Assembly (NCBI GenBank): GCA_007116075.1
Contig: SKJE01000162.1
Coordinates: 1-36,889 of the forward strand
Direction: 5' to 3'
DNA: 36,889 bases
From: Spirochaetia bacterium
GTDB lineage: Bacteria > Spirochaetota > Spirochaetia > PWKH01
Shown: piece by piece, positions 4,635-26,335 of the stretch
How positions within the stretch are numbered: the first letter of the stretch is position 1
Layout: every line of letters begins with the position of its first letter
Notes under the pieces: model-generated
What the model was told of the DNA's origin: nothing
The model's input: only the letters and a program-made list of their open reading frames with translations
The model's database searches: none
Translations under genes and position numbers: made by a program

Positions 4635-4708
4635 GGGGGCGTAGCGAAGCTGGTTATCGCGCCGGCCTGTCAAGCCGGAGATCGCGGGTTCAATCCCCGT
4701 CGCTCCCG
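4635..4708 (+). tRNA. tRNA-Asp (anticodon GUC)
   Basis: A complete cloverleaf of 74 bases. Acceptor stem GGGGGCG with CGCTCCC (one G-T pair), D-stem GCGA/TCGC, anticodon stem CCGGC/GCCGG closing the seven-base loop CTGTCAA (anticodon GTC), variable loop AGATC, T-arm GCGGG-TTCAATC-CCCGT, discriminator G. The 3' CCA is not encoded and must be added after transcription. Confidence 0.97.
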
Positions 4709-14144: not shown

Positions 14145-14167
14145 GATGTTTACATGAGGAGTTCCCC

Positions 14168-17062
14168 ATGGATGATACCTGGAGAATTGTTGAGACGGAC
14201 AAGAGCGAGAGAGACCTCGCCCGTCGGGAGAGCCTGTTCTCCCTGGGAAACGGGTATCTTGGGTTTCGAGGATTTTTCACTGAGCGGAGGCCGGCGTATC
14301 ATCCCGGGATCTTCTTAAATGGATTTTATGAACTGACACCTATCCTGTACGGAGAGCACGCTTATGGCCTGGCGAAATGCAACCAGACCATGCTGGACCT
14401 GCCGGACTGCAGATTCATGGAGGTGGCCCTCAATGGTGAGACCTTTCACCTGGCCTCCGGCACGGTGCATGACTACCGACGGGAACTGAACTTTCGAACG
14501 GGGGTCCTGACCAGGGAGGTGTCATGGACCAGCCCCGGCGGAACAAGCGGTCATCTGAAGTGGGAGAGCCTGATCTCCCTGGAACGCAGACATATCGGGG
14601 CTATGCGGTTTACCCTGGAGACGGATCCCGGCACCGATGTGCGGATTCGCTCCACCATAGCCCTCCCTTCGGAACGACCCCGGGACGAATATGATCCAAG
14701 GGTAAGTACCAAGCTCATGCGCCCCCCGCTGGAACAGCGAAATTCGCATTTTGAACAGCATGACCGAAGCTATGAGATCTACAGCTCCTTTGAAACCATA
14801 GAAAGCAAGTTATCCCTGCTCTGCGGGGTAGTGCTGCGCTATGCTCAGTCGGTCTATGCGACCAAGGAAGAGAGTGAATTCAGCCTGCCCTATATAACGC
14901 TCTGCAGCCAGTCCCAGTCTGTTACGCTGGAAAAGGTTTTCTATTACCACAGTAATCCCCAGGCTCGCGAGGTCAGGCAGAGCCGTTCTGCGGCTCAGGA
15001 GCTTTCCTGGGAGGACCTTGTGGCGGAACAGAAGCAGCATCTTGATGCCTTCTGGCATCGCAGTGATGTTGAGATCCAGGGGGACGATCTGCTCCAGCGG
15101 GCCCTTCGGTTTAATCTATTCCAGCTGTACCAGTCAACGGGAAAGGACGGACGGACCAGCCTGGCTGCAAAGGGCCTGACAGGAGGAGGGTATGAAGGGC
15201 ACTATTTCTGGGACACCGAAATATACGGCATGCCCTTTTTCACCTTTACCACTCCCGATACAGCCCGATCCCTGATTGCATACCGGATATCTATCCTGGA
15301 AAGGGCTATCCAGCGGGCTGAGGAGCTCTCCCAGCGGGGTGCGCTCTTTCCCTGGAGGACGATCAACGGCATGGAGGCCTCGGCGTATTATCCCGCCGGT
15401 ACTGCCCAGTACCATATCAATGCTGACATCGCCTACAGCATATTTCAGTATCTCGATGTGACCGGAGACCGTTCTATCCTGACCGACGGAGCCGCCCGGC
15501 TGCTCTGCGAGACCTCCAGGCTCTGGGAGGATCTGGGGTTTTACAATCCTGCCCGGGGGGGCGCATTCTGCATCAATGAGGTTACCGGTCCGGACGAGTA
15601 CTCGGCTCTGGTGAACAATAACTTCTACACCAATGTCATGGCCCAGTACCACCTGCTGCGGACCGTGGAGATCTTCGAGGATGACCCAGGTCTCCGGAAA
15701 CTTGCAGGCACCGATGAAGAAGAACTTGAGCTCTGGAGACGTGCCGGTGAGCAGATGTACATTCCCTTTGATCGGGATACAGGAATTCATCCACAGGATG
15801 ACAGCTTCCTTGAGCGGGAGCGTTGGGATTTCGAGCATCGTCCCAGGGATAAGTATCCCCTGCTGCTCTATTACCATCCCCTGGTTATATACCGATACCA
15901 GGTACTCAAGCAGGCCGATGCGGTACTTGCGCTGCTGCTGCTCAGTGACCGGTATCCATGGTACCAGCGCAGGAGGGACTTCACCTACTATGAGCCCCTG
16001 ACTACCGGTGACAGCTCACTGTCCGCCTGCATTCAGGGAATTGTCGCCTATGACTGCGGATATCCAGAGGAGGGGCTGAAGTACTGCAGGAACACCTCCC
16101 TGATGGATATTGAGGATCTCCATAAAAACACCAAGGATGGGCTGCATACCGCCGCCATGGCTGGTTCCTGGATGTCCATGGTCTTTGGTGTGGCTGGATT
16201 TCGTTATACCGGAGGTATTCCGCGGTTCCGTCCGGTTCTTCCGGATCAGTGGAGCAGCCTTACCTTTCCACTTACCCTGAAGGGTATTAGACTGGAGGTG
16301 CAGATTGAACCCGAGAAGACAACATACCGAAGCACCGGCGGTCCTGTTACGATCTATCACAGATCTGACCGGATAGATCTGGACGGCTCAGAAAGCATCC
16401 CCACCCGTCCCCAGTTCAAGGGGGCAGTCTTCGACCTCGACGGAGTGATCACTTCCACCGATGAGTTTCACTTTCGGGCATGGAAGCAGCTAGCCGATCG
16501 TCAGGGGTGGCATTTTGACCAAAGTATCAACAGGAGGCTGCGGGGAGTGAGCCGTCGGGAATCACTCATGATCATCCTTCGGGAGAATAACGTTGTCCTG
16601 GGGGAGGACACACTGCAGGCACTCACCGATGAGAAGAACCGGTGCTACCGCAGCTCCCTGGAGGAACTGACCCAAAATGATATCCTGCCGGGAATCAGCG
16701 AACTGCTGGAGACCCTGAGGGGTGAGGGCATTCTGCTGGCTGTTGCTTCGGCAAGCAGGAATGCTTCTTTTATCCTTGAACAGCTTGGTCTGCAGGAGGC
16801 CTTTGATGCGGTGGTGCCCGCCGGTGAGGTGATCCTGGGGAAACCCGACTGCGAGGTCTTTGCCCGCGCTGCTGATATGCTCGGGCTCTGGCCTGAGGAA
16901 TGCGTCGGGATAGAAGATGCAGAAGTGGGGATCATCAGTATCAAGGAGGCAATGATGAAGGCGGTGGGAGTCGGGGAGGCGGTGAAGGACAGCTCCTGGG
17001 ATCTCCATGTTGATGAACCCGCCCTGCTGTCCTATGAAGATATGCTCGCGCTCTTTCGGTGA
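14168..17062 (+). CDS. Fused GH65 disaccharide phosphorylase and beta-phosphoglucomutase
   Basis: A bifunctional enzyme of 964 residues. Residues 1 to about 740 are a complete GH65 inverting phosphorylase (kojibiose/nigerose/maltose/trehalose phosphorylase group) with N-terminal beta-sandwich (LFSLGNGYLGFRG) and catalytic barrel. The general acid is predicted to be E477 in VTGPDEY. Residues about 750-964 are a HAD-fold beta-phosphoglucomutase: FDLDGVI with nucleophile D756 and acid/base D758, then ASAS, a Lys in GKPD, and GIEDAEVGI. The first half would release beta-glucose-1-phosphate and the second turn it into glucose-6-phosphate. In E. coli the same two steps are separate proteins (YcjT, YcjU) beside an ABC transporter. 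The exact disaccharide cannot be read from sequence. ATG 14168 has GAGGAG upstream; an in-frame TTG at 14141 is rejected. Confidence 0.93.
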   Translation: MDDTWRIVETDKSERDLARRESLFSLGNGYLGFRGFFTERRPAYHPGIFLNGFYELTPILYGEHAYGLAKCNQTMLDLPDCRFMEVALNGETFHLASGTVHDYRRELNFRTGVLTREVSWTSPGGTSGHLKWESLISLERRHIGAMRFTLETDPGTDVRIRSTIALPSERPRDEYDPRVSTKLMRPPLEQRNSHFEQHDRSYEIYSSFETIESKLSLLCGVVLRYAQSVYATKEESEFSLPYITLCSQSQSVTLEKVFYYHSNPQAREVRQSRSAAQELSWEDLVAEQKQHLDAFWHRSDVEIQGDDLLQRALRFNLFQLYQSTGKDGRTSLAAKGLTGGGYEGHYFWDTEIYGMPFFTFTTPDTARSLIAYRISILERAIQRAEELSQRGALFPWRTINGMEASAYYPAGTAQYHINADIAYSIFQYLDVTGDRSILTDGAARLLCETSRLWEDLGFYNPARGGAFCINEVTGPDEYSALVNNNFYTNVMAQYHLLRTVEIFEDDPGLRKLAGTDEEELELWRRAGEQMYIPFDRDTGIHPQDDSFLERERWDFEHRPRDKYPLLLYYHPLVIYRYQVLKQADAVLALLLLSDRYPWYQRRRDFTYYEPLTTGDSSLSACIQGIVAYDCGYPEEGLKYCRNTSLMDIEDLHKNTKDGLHTAAMAGSWMSMVFGVAGFRYTGGIPRFRPVLPDQWSSLTFPLTLKGIRLEVQIEPEKTTYRSTGGPVTIYHRSDRIDLDGSESIPTRPQFKGAVFDLDGVITSTDEFHFRAWKQLADRQGWHFDQSINRRLRGVSRRESLMIILRENNVVLGEDTLQALTDEKNRCYRSSLEELTQNDILPGISELLETLRGEGILLAVASASRNASFILEQLGLQEAFDAVVPAGEVILGKPDCEVFARAADMLGLWPEECVGIEDAEVGIISIKEAMMKAVGVGEAVKDSSWDLHVDEPALLSYEDMLALFR

Positions 17063-22800: not shown

Positions 22801-23850
22801 ATGGAAAAACGCCGAATACTGACTGGAGATCGTCCGACGGGCAAGCTGCATCTCGGACACTACGTTGGATCACTGCAGAATCGAGTGAAACTGCAGCATG
22901 AATATGAATGCTTCTTTATCCTGGCTGATCTGCATACCCTGACCACAAAACCCGAGAAAAGCTCGGTTGAGGAGATAGCCACACATACCAGGGATCTGGT
23001 GCTTGACTATATAGCCTGCGGCATCGATCCGGACAAGTCGGTAATCTATTTGCAGTCTGCGGTCCATGAAGTATATGAGATGAACCTCTTTTTTGAGATG
23101 ATGGTGACTGTACCGAGACTCCAGAGAATCCCAAGTCTCAAGGATATGGCTAAGTCCGCTGACCTGCAGGAAATGCCCTTTGGACTGCTCGGATACCCTA
23201 TACTCCAGGCAGCTGATATTCTCATGCCCAGGGCTCACCTGGTGCCTGTGGGCAAGGATAATGAATCCCATGTTGAGCTGACCCGGGAGATTGCCCGCAG
23301 GTTCAACTATCTCTACGGTGATGTGTTCAATATCCCCGATGTACTTATAGGCAATGTGGGCTCCCTGGTAGGGACTGACGGAAATACGAAGATGTCAAAA
23401 TCCCTGAACAACGCCATTTATCTCTCGGATTCAGCCAGAATAGTTGAGAAAAAGGTATCCGGTATGTATACCGATCCAAATCGTGTCCGTGCTGATATCC
23501 CTGGAACAGTGGAGGGCAACCCGGTTTTTATCTATCACGACGTCTTCAATTCCGACAAGGGTGAGGTGGAGGATCTCAAAGAGCGCTACCGGACCGGCCG
23601 GGTGGGGGACGTTGAGGTGAAGCAGAAACTTACCCGGGCATTGAACGGATTCCTGGATCCTATCCGTGACAAGCGGGAAGATATAGCCTCCCGGAAGGGT
23701 TATGTGGATGAAGTGATCTATGAGGGAACGATGAAAGCCCGGGAGGAGGCACGGATGACCCTCCAGGCGATGAAGAAGGCCATGGGGATCAGCGGTATAT
23801 GGAACAGGATCAGCAGAAAAGCAGAACAGGCGAGAAAGAGCAGGAGCTAG
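22801..23850 (+). CDS. trpS: Tryptophanyl-tRNA synthetase
   Basis: It charges tRNA-Trp. 349 residues, a normal length for bacterial TrpRS. Class I signatures are present: the HIGH motif as KLHLGHYVGS near the N-terminus and KMSKS at residues 197-201, with the TrpRS-specific segment GYPILQAADIL between them. TAAGGA lies nine bases before the ATG. The MutY-like gene follows after 50 bases and is probably cotranscribed. Confidence 0.97.
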   Translation: MEKRRILTGDRPTGKLHLGHYVGSLQNRVKLQHEYECFFILADLHTLTTKPEKSSVEEIATHTRDLVLDYIACGIDPDKSVIYLQSAVHEVYEMNLFFEMMVTVPRLQRIPSLKDMAKSADLQEMPFGLLGYPILQAADILMPRAHLVPVGKDNESHVELTREIARRFNYLYGDVFNIPDVLIGNVGSLVGTDGNTKMSKSLNNAIYLSDSARIVEKKVSGMYTDPNRVRADIPGTVEGNPVFIYHDVFNSDKGEVEDLKERYRTGRVGDVEVKQKLTRALNGFLDPIRDKREDIASRKGYVDEVIYEGTMKAREEARMTLQAMKKAMGISGIWNRISRKAEQARKSRS

Positions 23851-23900
23851 GGGAGTATCTTTTTCCCCCCTGTTCATCCACCGGGGAAGTACATCCAGTC

Positions 23901-24740
23901 ATGAGATCTCAATTCCAGGATGGGGTGTACCGCTATTATCGTGAGCACGGGAGGTCCCTTCCCTGGAGGGATAGCTGTGATCCCTATGAAATCCTGGTCT
24001 CGGAGATGATGCTTCAGCAGACCCAGGTTTCCCGGGTACTGCCGAAGTATCATGCATTTCTTGACCGATTTCCCACCTTGAACGAACTGAGCAGATCATC
24101 CCTTGCGGAAGTGTTCTCTCTCTGGCAGGGCCTCGGCTATAACCGCCGGGCCCAGGCGCTGCTGCAGATCGCCCGTCAATGTCCCCGGGGACTGCCGGAT
24201 ACAAGGGAGGAACTGCTGCAGCTGCCCATGGTAGGTCCTGCAACTTCTGCTGCGGTCCTTGCCTTTGCATGGAACCGTCCGGTGCTCTATCTGGAGACTA
24301 ATATCCGGCGGGTGCTGCTCTATGCGTTCTTCTACGAGCAGCAGGAGGTATATGACCGTACACTCTATCCCGTACTTGAGTATCTGCTGGACCGGGATAA
24401 CCCAAAACAGTGGTATTATGCCCTTATGGACTATGGGGTGTACCTGACCCGGCTCCTGCCGAATCCGAATCGGCGAAGCGCCCACTATACCCGGCAGGCT
24501 CCCTACCAAAATTCAAATCGCCATGTACGTGGAACTATCCTTTTGATCCTCAATGAGCGCGGACCGGTACGGCTGGATGAATTGGTTGATTATGCTTCCT
24601 TTGATCCTGACCGGGTCCGGGAGACCGCCCTGAAGCTCGAACAAGAGGGATTCATTGAAATCGACCGCCCGAACTCTGCTTCAGAGGAGGAGCCCTCCTA
24701 TGGTGAATGGCGTATGAGGATACCCTCGAACATAGTGTGA
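23901..24740 (+). CDS. MutY-like HhH-GPD DNA glycosylase without iron-sulfur cluster
   Basis: A base-excision glycosylase of 279 residues, most like A/G-specific adenine glycosylase. It keeps LPWR, the SEMMLQQTQV helix with E35 (E37 in E. coli MutY) and the helix-hairpin-helix LPMVGPATSAAVLAFA. The usual catalytic Asp of the LDGNV motif is replaced by E132 in LETNIRRV, and the four Cys that bind the cluster are missing. From about residue 210 a winged-helix-like domain (LILNERGPVRLDELVDYASF) replaces the usual C-terminal NUDIX-like domain. Residue 1 is set at ATG 23901, which aligns with MutY; an in-frame ATG at 23799 inside trpS would add 34 residues. Neither start has a strong ribosome binding site. 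Confidence 0.8.
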   Translation: MRSQFQDGVYRYYREHGRSLPWRDSCDPYEILVSEMMLQQTQVSRVLPKYHAFLDRFPTLNELSRSSLAEVFSLWQGLGYNRRAQALLQIARQCPRGLPDTREELLQLPMVGPATSAAVLAFAWNRPVLYLETNIRRVLLYAFFYEQQEVYDRTLYPVLEYLLDRDNPKQWYYALMDYGVYLTRLLPNPNRRSAHYTRQAPYQNSNRHVRGTILLILNERGPVRLDELVDYASFDPDRVRETALKLEQEGFIEIDRPNSASEEEPSYGEWRMRIPSNIV

Positions 24741-24790
24741 ACATTATATAATAAACTATGAATATTGCACAAAAAAATTGCAGAAAAGTA

Positions 24791-24819
24791 TTGATTTTAT
24801 GCAAAACATGCTGTATAAA
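24791..24819 (+). promoter_or_regulatory. Promoter of the candidate small RNA
   Basis: TTGATT (24791-24796) and TATAAA (24814-24819), 17 bases apart. Predicted start near 24826. Confidence 0.6.
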
Positions 24820-24825
24820 CGTACC

Positions 24826-24948
24826 TACCCTGCAATTTCCTGGAACATCGGAGCGGGTACCCGCTCGCTTCGACTAATCTGAGTTCTCCCTTTCAGGGGG
24901 AGCGAAGACCGGCCCATATACTCCTTACGAGCTATATGGGCCTTTTTT
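24826..24948 (+). ncRNA. Candidate structured small RNA of about 120 nt
   Basis: No open reading frame explains this stretch. It runs from a good promoter to a strong intrinsic terminator, and a separate promoter for the next gene follows, so it looks like its own unit. By eye it can fold as hairpin GAGCGG-GTAC-CCGCTC, then a stem CTTCG/CGAAG enclosing CTCCC/GGGAG, then the terminator stem. It lacks the SRP RNA apical motif and is too short for a typical 6S RNA. Alternatively it is a terminating leader (riboswitch-like) of the hexokinase gene. Confidence 0.5.
24911..24948 (+). terminator. Strong intrinsic terminator
   Basis: GGCCCATATA (24911-24920) pairs perfectly with TATATGGGCC (24933-24942); CTC/GAG can extend the stem inside the 12-base loop. 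Six T follow (24943-24948). Confidence 0.93.
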
Positions 24949-24961
24949 GGGCTATTATTTC

Positions 24962-24991
24962 TGGACAAACCCCTATATCTTTTCGTACAAT
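24962..24991 (+). promoter_or_regulatory. Hexokinase promoter
   Basis: TGGACA (24962-24967) and TACAAT (24986-24991), 5/6 matches each, 18 bases apart. The start near 24998 gives a leader of about 33 bases. Confidence 0.6.
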
Positions 24992-25030: not shown

Positions 25031-26335
25031 ATGCTGTTTTCAAGAAGTGCCGATTCATTTCTGATGTCCCACGGTATCCATCCCGAGCAAGTAGATATGG
25101 ATCTCTTATGCAGGAGGTTTCTTCATGAAATGCATGAAGGCCTGCGGGGAGACCCGTCATCCCTGGCCATGCTTCCCACCTTTGTATCAGTCAAGGATAC
25201 AATTCCCTCCGGAGAACCGGTGATTGTGCTTGATGCGGGGGGGACAAACTTCCGTTCATGTCTGGTGACCTTTGATGATGAGGGCAAGTCCTATATATCA
25301 AGTTATTCCAAGCAGCCCATGCCGGGCAGTAAGGGTCTTCTCAGTAAGGATGAGTTCTTTCATGAACTGGCATCCTACACCCTTCCGCTTATCAAGGAGA
25401 GTGCTACCGTCGGGTTCTGCTTTTCATATCCCACCGAGAGTACACCCGGCCGGGACGGACGGGTGCTGCATTTTTCAAAGGAGGTTCAGGCCCCTGATGT
25501 TGTGGGAGAGCTTGTGGGAGAGAACCTTAAGCATCTTTTTCTCCAGCATCAGCCGGAGGGTAGATGGACTATAACGATCCTCAACGATACCGCGGCAACC
25601 CTGCTGGCCGGAAAAATAGCGGCCCGCAAGCACTACAGCGGATATATCGGCTTTATCCTGGGAACCGGCACCAACACAAGTTATGTGGAATCCTGTGAGG
25701 CTATCGGTAAGATCGACCGGCTATCCTTTTCGGGTGCTAACCAGATCGTGAATGTGGAAAGCGGGGGGTTTTTTCTCGGACTGAGTGATCTGGACCGACA
25801 GTTCTATGATACTACAAAGCATCCTGAAAGTTATCATTTTGAGAAAGTGGTCTCCGGGGCGTATCTTGGGCCCTATGTGCTGTTCGTACTGCACCAGGCA
25901 GCCCGGGAGGGGCTGTTCTGCGAAGAGACCTGCAGAAGTATTCTTGAGATAAAGACCATGAGCACCATCGAGATGGATGACCTGCTTCATACCCCGGATG
26001 TTCCTTCGGTGCTCCACCATGCCTGCGGTGAGAACCTGATGGACCGTTCTCTGGTCTACCAGATTGCAGACCGCCTGATTGAGCGGGCAGCCCGGTTATC
26101 AGCGGTGAACCTGTCTGCTGCGGTGCTGAAGTCCGGAGCGGGAGGTGATCCCTCCCGGCCGGTCTGCATCAATGCCGACGGAACCACGTTCCTGAAGACC
26201 CACCACCTGAAAAAGTACACTGAAGAGTACCTTCGGGAGTATCTGGTGGAACAGCACGGCAGGTTCTATGAGATGATCCATGTCGATAACGCGCCGGTAC
26301 TGGGAGCAGCTATCGCAGGTCTCCAGAACCGGTAA
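25031..26335 (+). CDS. Hexokinase, eukaryotic type
   Basis: It phosphorylates glucose and similar hexoses with ATP. 434 residues, with the fold of eukaryotic hexokinases (PF00349/PF03727) rather than bacterial glucokinase or ROK kinases. Motifs: phosphate loop LDAGGTNFRS (residues 67-76), the sugar-binding segment GFCFSYPTES, catalytic D186 in ILNDTAATLLAG, the second phosphate loop ILGTGTNTSYVE, and NVESGGFF. Such hexokinases are a known feature of treponemes. AAGGAG lies eight bases before ATG 25031; a longer frame to 24947 starts in the terminator and is rejected. It could handle the glucose released by the phosphorylase fusion. It overlaps the convergent APH-like gene by 26 bases. Confidence 0.93.
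   Translation: MLFSRSADSFLMSHGIHPEQVDMDLLCRRFLHEMHEGLRGDPSSLAMLPTFVSVKDTIPSGEPVIVLDAGGTNFRSCLVTFDDEGKSYISSYSKQPMPGSKGLLSKDEFFHELASYTLPLIKESATVGFCFSYPTESTPGRDGRVLHFSKEVQAPDVVGELVGENLKHLFLQHQPEGRWTITILNDTAATLLAGKIAARKHYSGYIGFILGTGTNTSYVESCEAIGKIDRLSFSGANQIVNVESGGFFLGLSDLDRQFYDTTKHPESYHFEKVVSGAYLGPYVLFVLHQAAREGLFCEETCRSILEIKTMSTIEMDDLLHTPDVPSVLHHACGENLMDRSLVYQIADRLIERAARLSAVNLSAAVLKSGAGGDPSRPVCINADGTTFLKTHHLKKYTEEYLREYLVEQHGRFYEMIHVDNAPVLGAAIAGLQNR

Follow-up and report, generated by a model that had tools for sequence, protein, structure and literature searches.

A probable small RNA gene of the seed type, conserved between a mutY-like gene and hexokinase in one genus of spirochaetes

In the genome of an uncultured spirochaete (G000; 2.2 Mb, 200 contigs, 93.9% complete), the interval between a mutY-like gene and the hexokinase gene contains a compact transcription unit that is very probably a real small RNA gene. 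A sequence-only reading of the window, the whole 36,889-nt stretch of DNA analysed here, had proposed a free-standing small RNA gene at this place, and comparative sequence evidence now supports it: a conserved promoter, an invariant 5′ segment, hairpins with compensatory changes, an intrinsic terminator, and the lack of both an Rfam match and a conserved reading frame. The unit represents a novel family within a recognised class, that of the seed-type small RNAs. The explanation that we favour, and hold to be probable, is an independently transcribed, trans-acting RNA of this type that masks Shine-Dalgarno sequences without a recognisable Hfq; its mechanism, taken separately, is plausible.

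The unit is flanked on the same, forward strand by a gene for an HhH-GPD (mutY-like) protein at 23799-24740 and by the hexokinase gene at 25031-26335, both assigned by Pfam. It was compared with two other species of the genus (G001 and G002) and with a genome of the sister genus (G003), and was present in all three species of the genus, each time between the mutY-like gene and hexokinase. PF00730 is the sole Pfam match of the mutY-like protein, which, judged by eye, seems not to have the cysteine cluster expected at the C terminus of a MutY. Elsewhere in the window, at 14162-17062, a glycoside-phosphorylase-like protein is apparently fused to a beta-phosphoglucomutase-like HAD domain (recognised by eye from a DLDGV motif), and the gene for this fusion follows those for an ABC sugar transporter and a LacI-type regulator.

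The promoter proposed upstream of the unit consists of a -35 hexamer TTGATT (24791-24796) and a -10 hexamer TATAAA (24814-24819) on the forward strand, separated by a 17-nt spacer and matching the consensus at 9 of 12 positions. Taken on its own, this promoter is weak evidence. A consensus scan that demanded T at position 6 did not list TTGATT-17-TATAAA, gave a weak, shorter terminator in place of the long one, and found promoter-like sites about as frequently in shuffled sequences as in the window. The proposal gained weight from the three-species alignment, in which the -35 block AGTATTGA, overlapping the hexamer, is invariant in 8/8 columns and the -10 block GTATAAA in 7/7, against only 2 of the 18 columns of the spacer between them. 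Invariant blocks around a randomised spacer point to a promoter of the unit's own, as is characteristic of a trans-encoded sRNA, with a predicted +1 at about 24826-24827. Further upstream, a block ACTATGAATATTGCACAAAA (24755-24774, forward strand; 14/20 columns invariant in the three species) is a candidate UP element or regulator site for the small RNA.

The proposed small RNA spans about 120 nt on the forward strand (24827-24946), its 5′ end being predicted from the -10 box and its 3′ end from the terminator. It opens with a 24-nt segment, ACCCTGCAATTTCCTGGAACATCG (24827-24850), which is identical in all 24 columns in G000, G001, and G002 and which we propose as the seed. Counted from the -10 box, the invariant stretch begins at the eighth nucleotide in two species (G000 and G002) and at the seventh in G001, which is where the 5′ end is expected. 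Since the hexokinase proteins of the three species are 70% identical, the complete identity of this segment and of the promoter blocks implies strong selection. The same comparison bears on the simplest alternative, namely that there is no functional RNA here, merely the terminator of a mutY-like operon with neighbouring palindromes. Such a terminator could also end mutY transcription, but this account leaves both the invariant -35 and -10 blocks and the identical 24-nt segment unexplained in species whose hexokinases have diverged to this degree, and we regard it as very improbable.

The first 21 nt of the segment are predicted to be mostly unpaired in G000, and they are accompanied by two anti-Shine-Dalgarno-like motifs within the segment, CCCUGC and UUUCCUGG, complementary to the Shine-Dalgarno-like sequences GCAGGG and CCAGGAAA, respectively. 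The UUUCCUGG part could pair with the second stem-loop in G001 and, in part, in G002, so that the folding model gives a conserved seed that is mostly free in G000 and partly paired in the other two species. Concealment of the seed by this stem-loop exceeded that in shuffled sequences in G002 alone (0.034, compared with 0.56 in G000 and 0.67 in G001), and no conserved switch is therefore claimed.

About 84 nt, folding into two hairpins, separate the promoter from the terminator hairpin. Stem-loop 1 (24848-24873, forward strand) keeps 9/9 pairs in the three species and carries two compensatory double changes (G-C/A-U and A-U/G-C), whereas stem-loop 2 (24878-24908, forward strand) has little sequence in common among them, although a hairpin is predicted in each; taken alone, it is more stable than its shuffles in G000 (0.01) and G002 (0.008) but not in G001 (0.21). 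The terminator (24911-24948, forward strand) comprises the arms GGCCCATA...TATGGGCC and a T tract. Its strength had been asserted from the sequence, and the hairpin at 24911-24942 indeed reaches a predicted -19.7 kcal/mol in G000, followed by six T, with values of -18.4 to -19.7 kcal/mol across the three species. The structured unit of some 120 bases described earlier likewise holds up, with three stems and a predicted free energy of -53.1 kcal/mol for 24827-24946 (z = -5.8), a stability attained by 0/200 dinucleotide shuffles. Folding from 24826 instead gave z = -5.55, and the reverse strand gave z = -1.9; in the three species the values were -5.8, -5.5, and -5.1, with 0/200 shuffles equal in each. 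Conservation of the stems, which the sequence-only reading had named as a check, is upheld in part. Pairs are kept, as stem 1 and the eight-pair terminator contain standard pairs in 51/51 cells, compared with 23-47% in slid-partner controls, and the two double changes are present; however, column shuffles yielded an equal number of double changes in 63/500 cases. With three full sequences only, the covariation is accordingly modest.

No frame of at least 6 codons beginning with ATG, GTG, or TTG was found in the RNA unit of the window, which agrees with the earlier statement that it contains no reading frame. CTG-initiated frames of 9-39 codons do cross the conserved segment, and could suggest a small mRNA for a short peptide, either dual in function or mistaken for a non-coding RNA. 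Their lengths and sequences vary between species, no ATG, GTG, or TTG start occurs in the conserved segment, and the compensatory changes preserve pairing; a peptide is thus an extremely improbable product. The unit therefore combines an intrinsic terminator, a length within 50-300 nt, and the absence of a conserved reading frame, as is usual for sRNAs. Its dissimilarity to SRP, 6S, tmRNA, and RNase P RNAs, also stated earlier, was confirmed with Rfam 15: there was no match to the unit at the gathering threshold, and covariance-model searches below the family threshold gave nothing meaningful for the unit at E ≤ 10 or for its homologues at E ≤ 5. Elsewhere in the window, a tRNA (4635-4708) gave the sole gathering-level match.

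In a sequence search of 60 relatives, 42 genomes gave some match at E ≤ 1, mostly to a short fragment. Beyond such fragments, only the genome itself and its two congeners were matched (E 3e-14 and 2e-12), and it is this conservation in two congeners that raises the unit above chance; the next best value was 0.0016, and fragment matches at this value or worse were dropped as chance. A weak opposite-strand match in G001 is due to the palindromic terminator of the unit there. A covariance model built from the three sequences recovers all three (E 1e-25 to 2e-30) and, over 394 genomes of the class, yielded no credible further member: 7 genomes had a match at E ≤ 0.1, three of them members of the genus. 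The other four were rejected, as the match lies mainly in the terminator and antisense to an open frame in G357 (L074), antisense to a sugar-kinase-like gene in G513 (L075), in a hairpin and terminator that follow a protease-like gene in G344 (L076), and antisense to a cobU-like gene in G336 (L077), the last three assigned by eye. A 24-mer search with up to 3 mismatches over 296 genomes of the phylum, a sample outside which G001 and G002 fall, gave matches in two genomes, the genome itself and G110, the latter discarded as antisense within a coding frame. The exact 20-mer was found in four records of genome contigs, two from the congeners and two without the rest of the unit, and in none of the viral contigs; the plasmids and phages searched contained no match.

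In the sister genus, G003 has no match to the covariance model. The terminator motif GGCCCATA-N-TATGGGCC nevertheless occurs once there. G000 and G001 likewise have a single occurrence, at this locus, and G002, where the arm carries a G-U variant, has none. In G003, the motif stands at a contig end (C197), with a 170-codon gene of unknown function (L034 2851-3363, contig 197) and then hexokinase downstream of it; the mutY-like gene is at another contig end (C43), and the stretch between C43 and C197 is unassembled. Judged from its sequence and position, the G003 terminator is probably orthologous to that of the genus. After mutY in G003, a TATTGAT motif is seen at a similar distance, and no clear -10 box is visible. 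The RNA family is thus detected in this genus only, plus a partial trace in the sister genus.

The position of the unit directly upstream of hexokinase, on the same strand in three species, raises the question of whether it is instead a cis-acting leader, namely a riboswitch or attenuator within the 5′ UTR of hexokinase whose off state is the terminator, an alternative that had been noted from the outset. The order of promoter, structured RNA, terminator, and gene is also the anatomy of an attenuator. Hexokinase, however, has a separate promoter of its own 3′ of the terminator, as the sequence-only reading had maintained: TGGACA-18-TACAAT (24962-24991, forward strand) is conserved in the three species, with 9/10 and 5/6 columns of its hexamer blocks conserved and the spacer randomised. 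Moreover, no upstream alternative partner was found for either terminator arm beyond what shuffles provide (0.40-0.99 in three species), so that the locus shows neither the antiterminator pairing nor the promoterless gene of an attenuator. In G003, where the terminator alone is seen, the 170-codon gene intervenes before hexokinase. These three observations (a promoter of its own for hexokinase, no antiterminator, and the intervening gene) weigh against the leader, which we now consider improbable. Pairing of the seed with the start region of the gene also ranks among the poorest (-8.3 kcal/mol, p = 0.92, meaning that 92% of random window segments pair equally well or better), and the small RNA is not predicted to base-pair with hexokinase.

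Targets elsewhere were sought through complements of the seed. Among 33 start regions in the window, the best seed pairing reached p = 0.097. A 17-mer complement search with up to 3 mismatches in four genomes gave 79 seed-like matches, including the three small-RNA genes themselves; 70 of these loci were examined, nine G003 matches without a locus being left out. The best-looking site (G000, contig 193) was rejected, as it falls within the coding motif of a cobU-like gene and precedes an alternative start by 32 nt. Seed-like 17-mers outnumber those of a reversed-pattern control in the sister genus as well (16 vs 0), which has no known complete copy of the RNA, and their excess hence probably reflects coding bias. 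The cobU-like motif FQDIAGM (by eye; L043 1501-1517 and L077 1501-1530) is itself nearly complementary to the seed and occurs also in a genome without this RNA, which makes it a trap for target prediction. The pattern CCAGGAAA-ATG was counted 188 times, and none of the 30 loci examined among the matches listed was at a convincing start. The 8-mer TTGCAGGG with an ATG within 14 nt was found 57 times in three genomes, and 3 of the 51 matches examined were at convincing ribosome-binding sites: two in G001, preceding genes for an ABC-transporter solute-binding protein and a DHH-family protein, one in G002, preceding a class-III aminotransferase gene, and 0/8 in G000. These are different genes, none common to the species as far as tested, and as putative targets they are leads only.

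The absence of a conserved target among those sought also favours a different kind of RNA, one that binds or titrates a protein through the invariant 24-nt segment, in the manner of 6S, a CsrA sponge, or another such RNA. In addition, 24 invariant nucleotides are long for a base-pairing seed, and two GGA motifs lie within or at the end of the segment in G000 and G001. On the other hand, no Rfam family such as 6S matches, no GGA repeats were seen in loops, and G002 has GAA in place of the second GGA, with its pairing kept; the segment also lies at the 5′ end and is mostly unpaired, as in seed-type sRNAs. We judge protein binding to be unlikely.

Hfq (Pfam PF17209, E ≤ 1) was detected in 0/4 of the family genomes, which are 81-94% complete; the same profile found Hfq in 6/14 named genomes used as a control. 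Among other spirochaetes, Borrelia burgdorferi is described as being without Hfq and Leptospiraceae as having it (PMC11607428).

Returning to the seed-type small RNA, the following scheme would be consistent with the features above. Transcription from the sigma-70-type promoter would start near 24826 and terminate at the 24911-24942 hairpin, and the product would be some 120 nt long. The 5′ end of this RNA, ACCCUGCAAUUUCCUGGAACA, would be largely single-stranded and serve as the seed, whose CCCUGC and UUUCCUGG motifs may pair with the purine-rich ribosome-binding sites GCAGGG and CCAGGAAA. Given this complementarity, the RNA would most likely repress several mRNAs, or reshape their decay, by occluding their Shine-Dalgarno regions. 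Stability of the RNA and presentation of the seed would be provided by stem-loops 1 and 2 and protection of the 3′ end by the terminator, and the whole would work without a recognisable Hfq.

Enterobacterial seed-type sRNAs such as OmrA/B and RybB have a conserved 5′ end and depend on Hfq. The present unit resembles them in its invariant 5′ segment at the transcription start, the hairpins behind it, and its intrinsic terminator, but differs in that no Hfq was detected (0/4 genomes), and there is no homology. The Gram-positive, Hfq-independent, C-rich RNAs RoxS/RsaE and FsrA are similar in being trans-encoded and in pairing with Shine-Dalgarno sequences through short C-rich stretches, and RoxS is reported to use such pairing in a host where Hfq has no global role (PMC8216469). 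In contrast to these, the motif here is at the free 5′ end within 24 invariant nucleotides, and no relationship was detected (no Rfam match). Within the phylum, SR0440 ('DsrA') of Borrelia burgdorferi, which reportedly has no Hfq, is described as an sRNA that may act by base pairing (PMC11607428). Borrelia is a distant spirochaete, and the likeness is one of description only. Among the titles listed in a search of the spirochaete small-RNA literature, which covered few subscription journals, none concerned an sRNA at a hexokinase locus. A public metatranscriptome from the sediment of Cock Soda Lake, the probable habitat of the congeners, carries the accession SRP144042 (PMC6704655). CSSed10 denotes a dataset from soda-lake sediment of moderate salinity (PMC6146748), the name probably standing for Cock Soda Lake sediment 2010.

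As to physiological role, a solute-binding protein gene is one of the G001 leads at a TTGCAGGG site, and the RNA gene adjoins hexokinase. From these leads, we tentatively raise a more far-reaching and rather doubtful reading, in which the RNA would act independently of Hfq in free-living spirochaetes and mask Shine-Dalgarno sequences so as to regulate sugar uptake and central metabolism. Its 24-nt seed would then serve several targets, and as stem-loop 2 can hide the UUUCCUGG half in some species, the RNA could alternate between sets of targets. The gene itself is small, and its edges are defined within a few bases. A conserved and probably seed-type sRNA whose host genomes contain no detectable Hfq, it offers a concrete, testable case of how spirochaete small RNAs may act without the usual chaperone.
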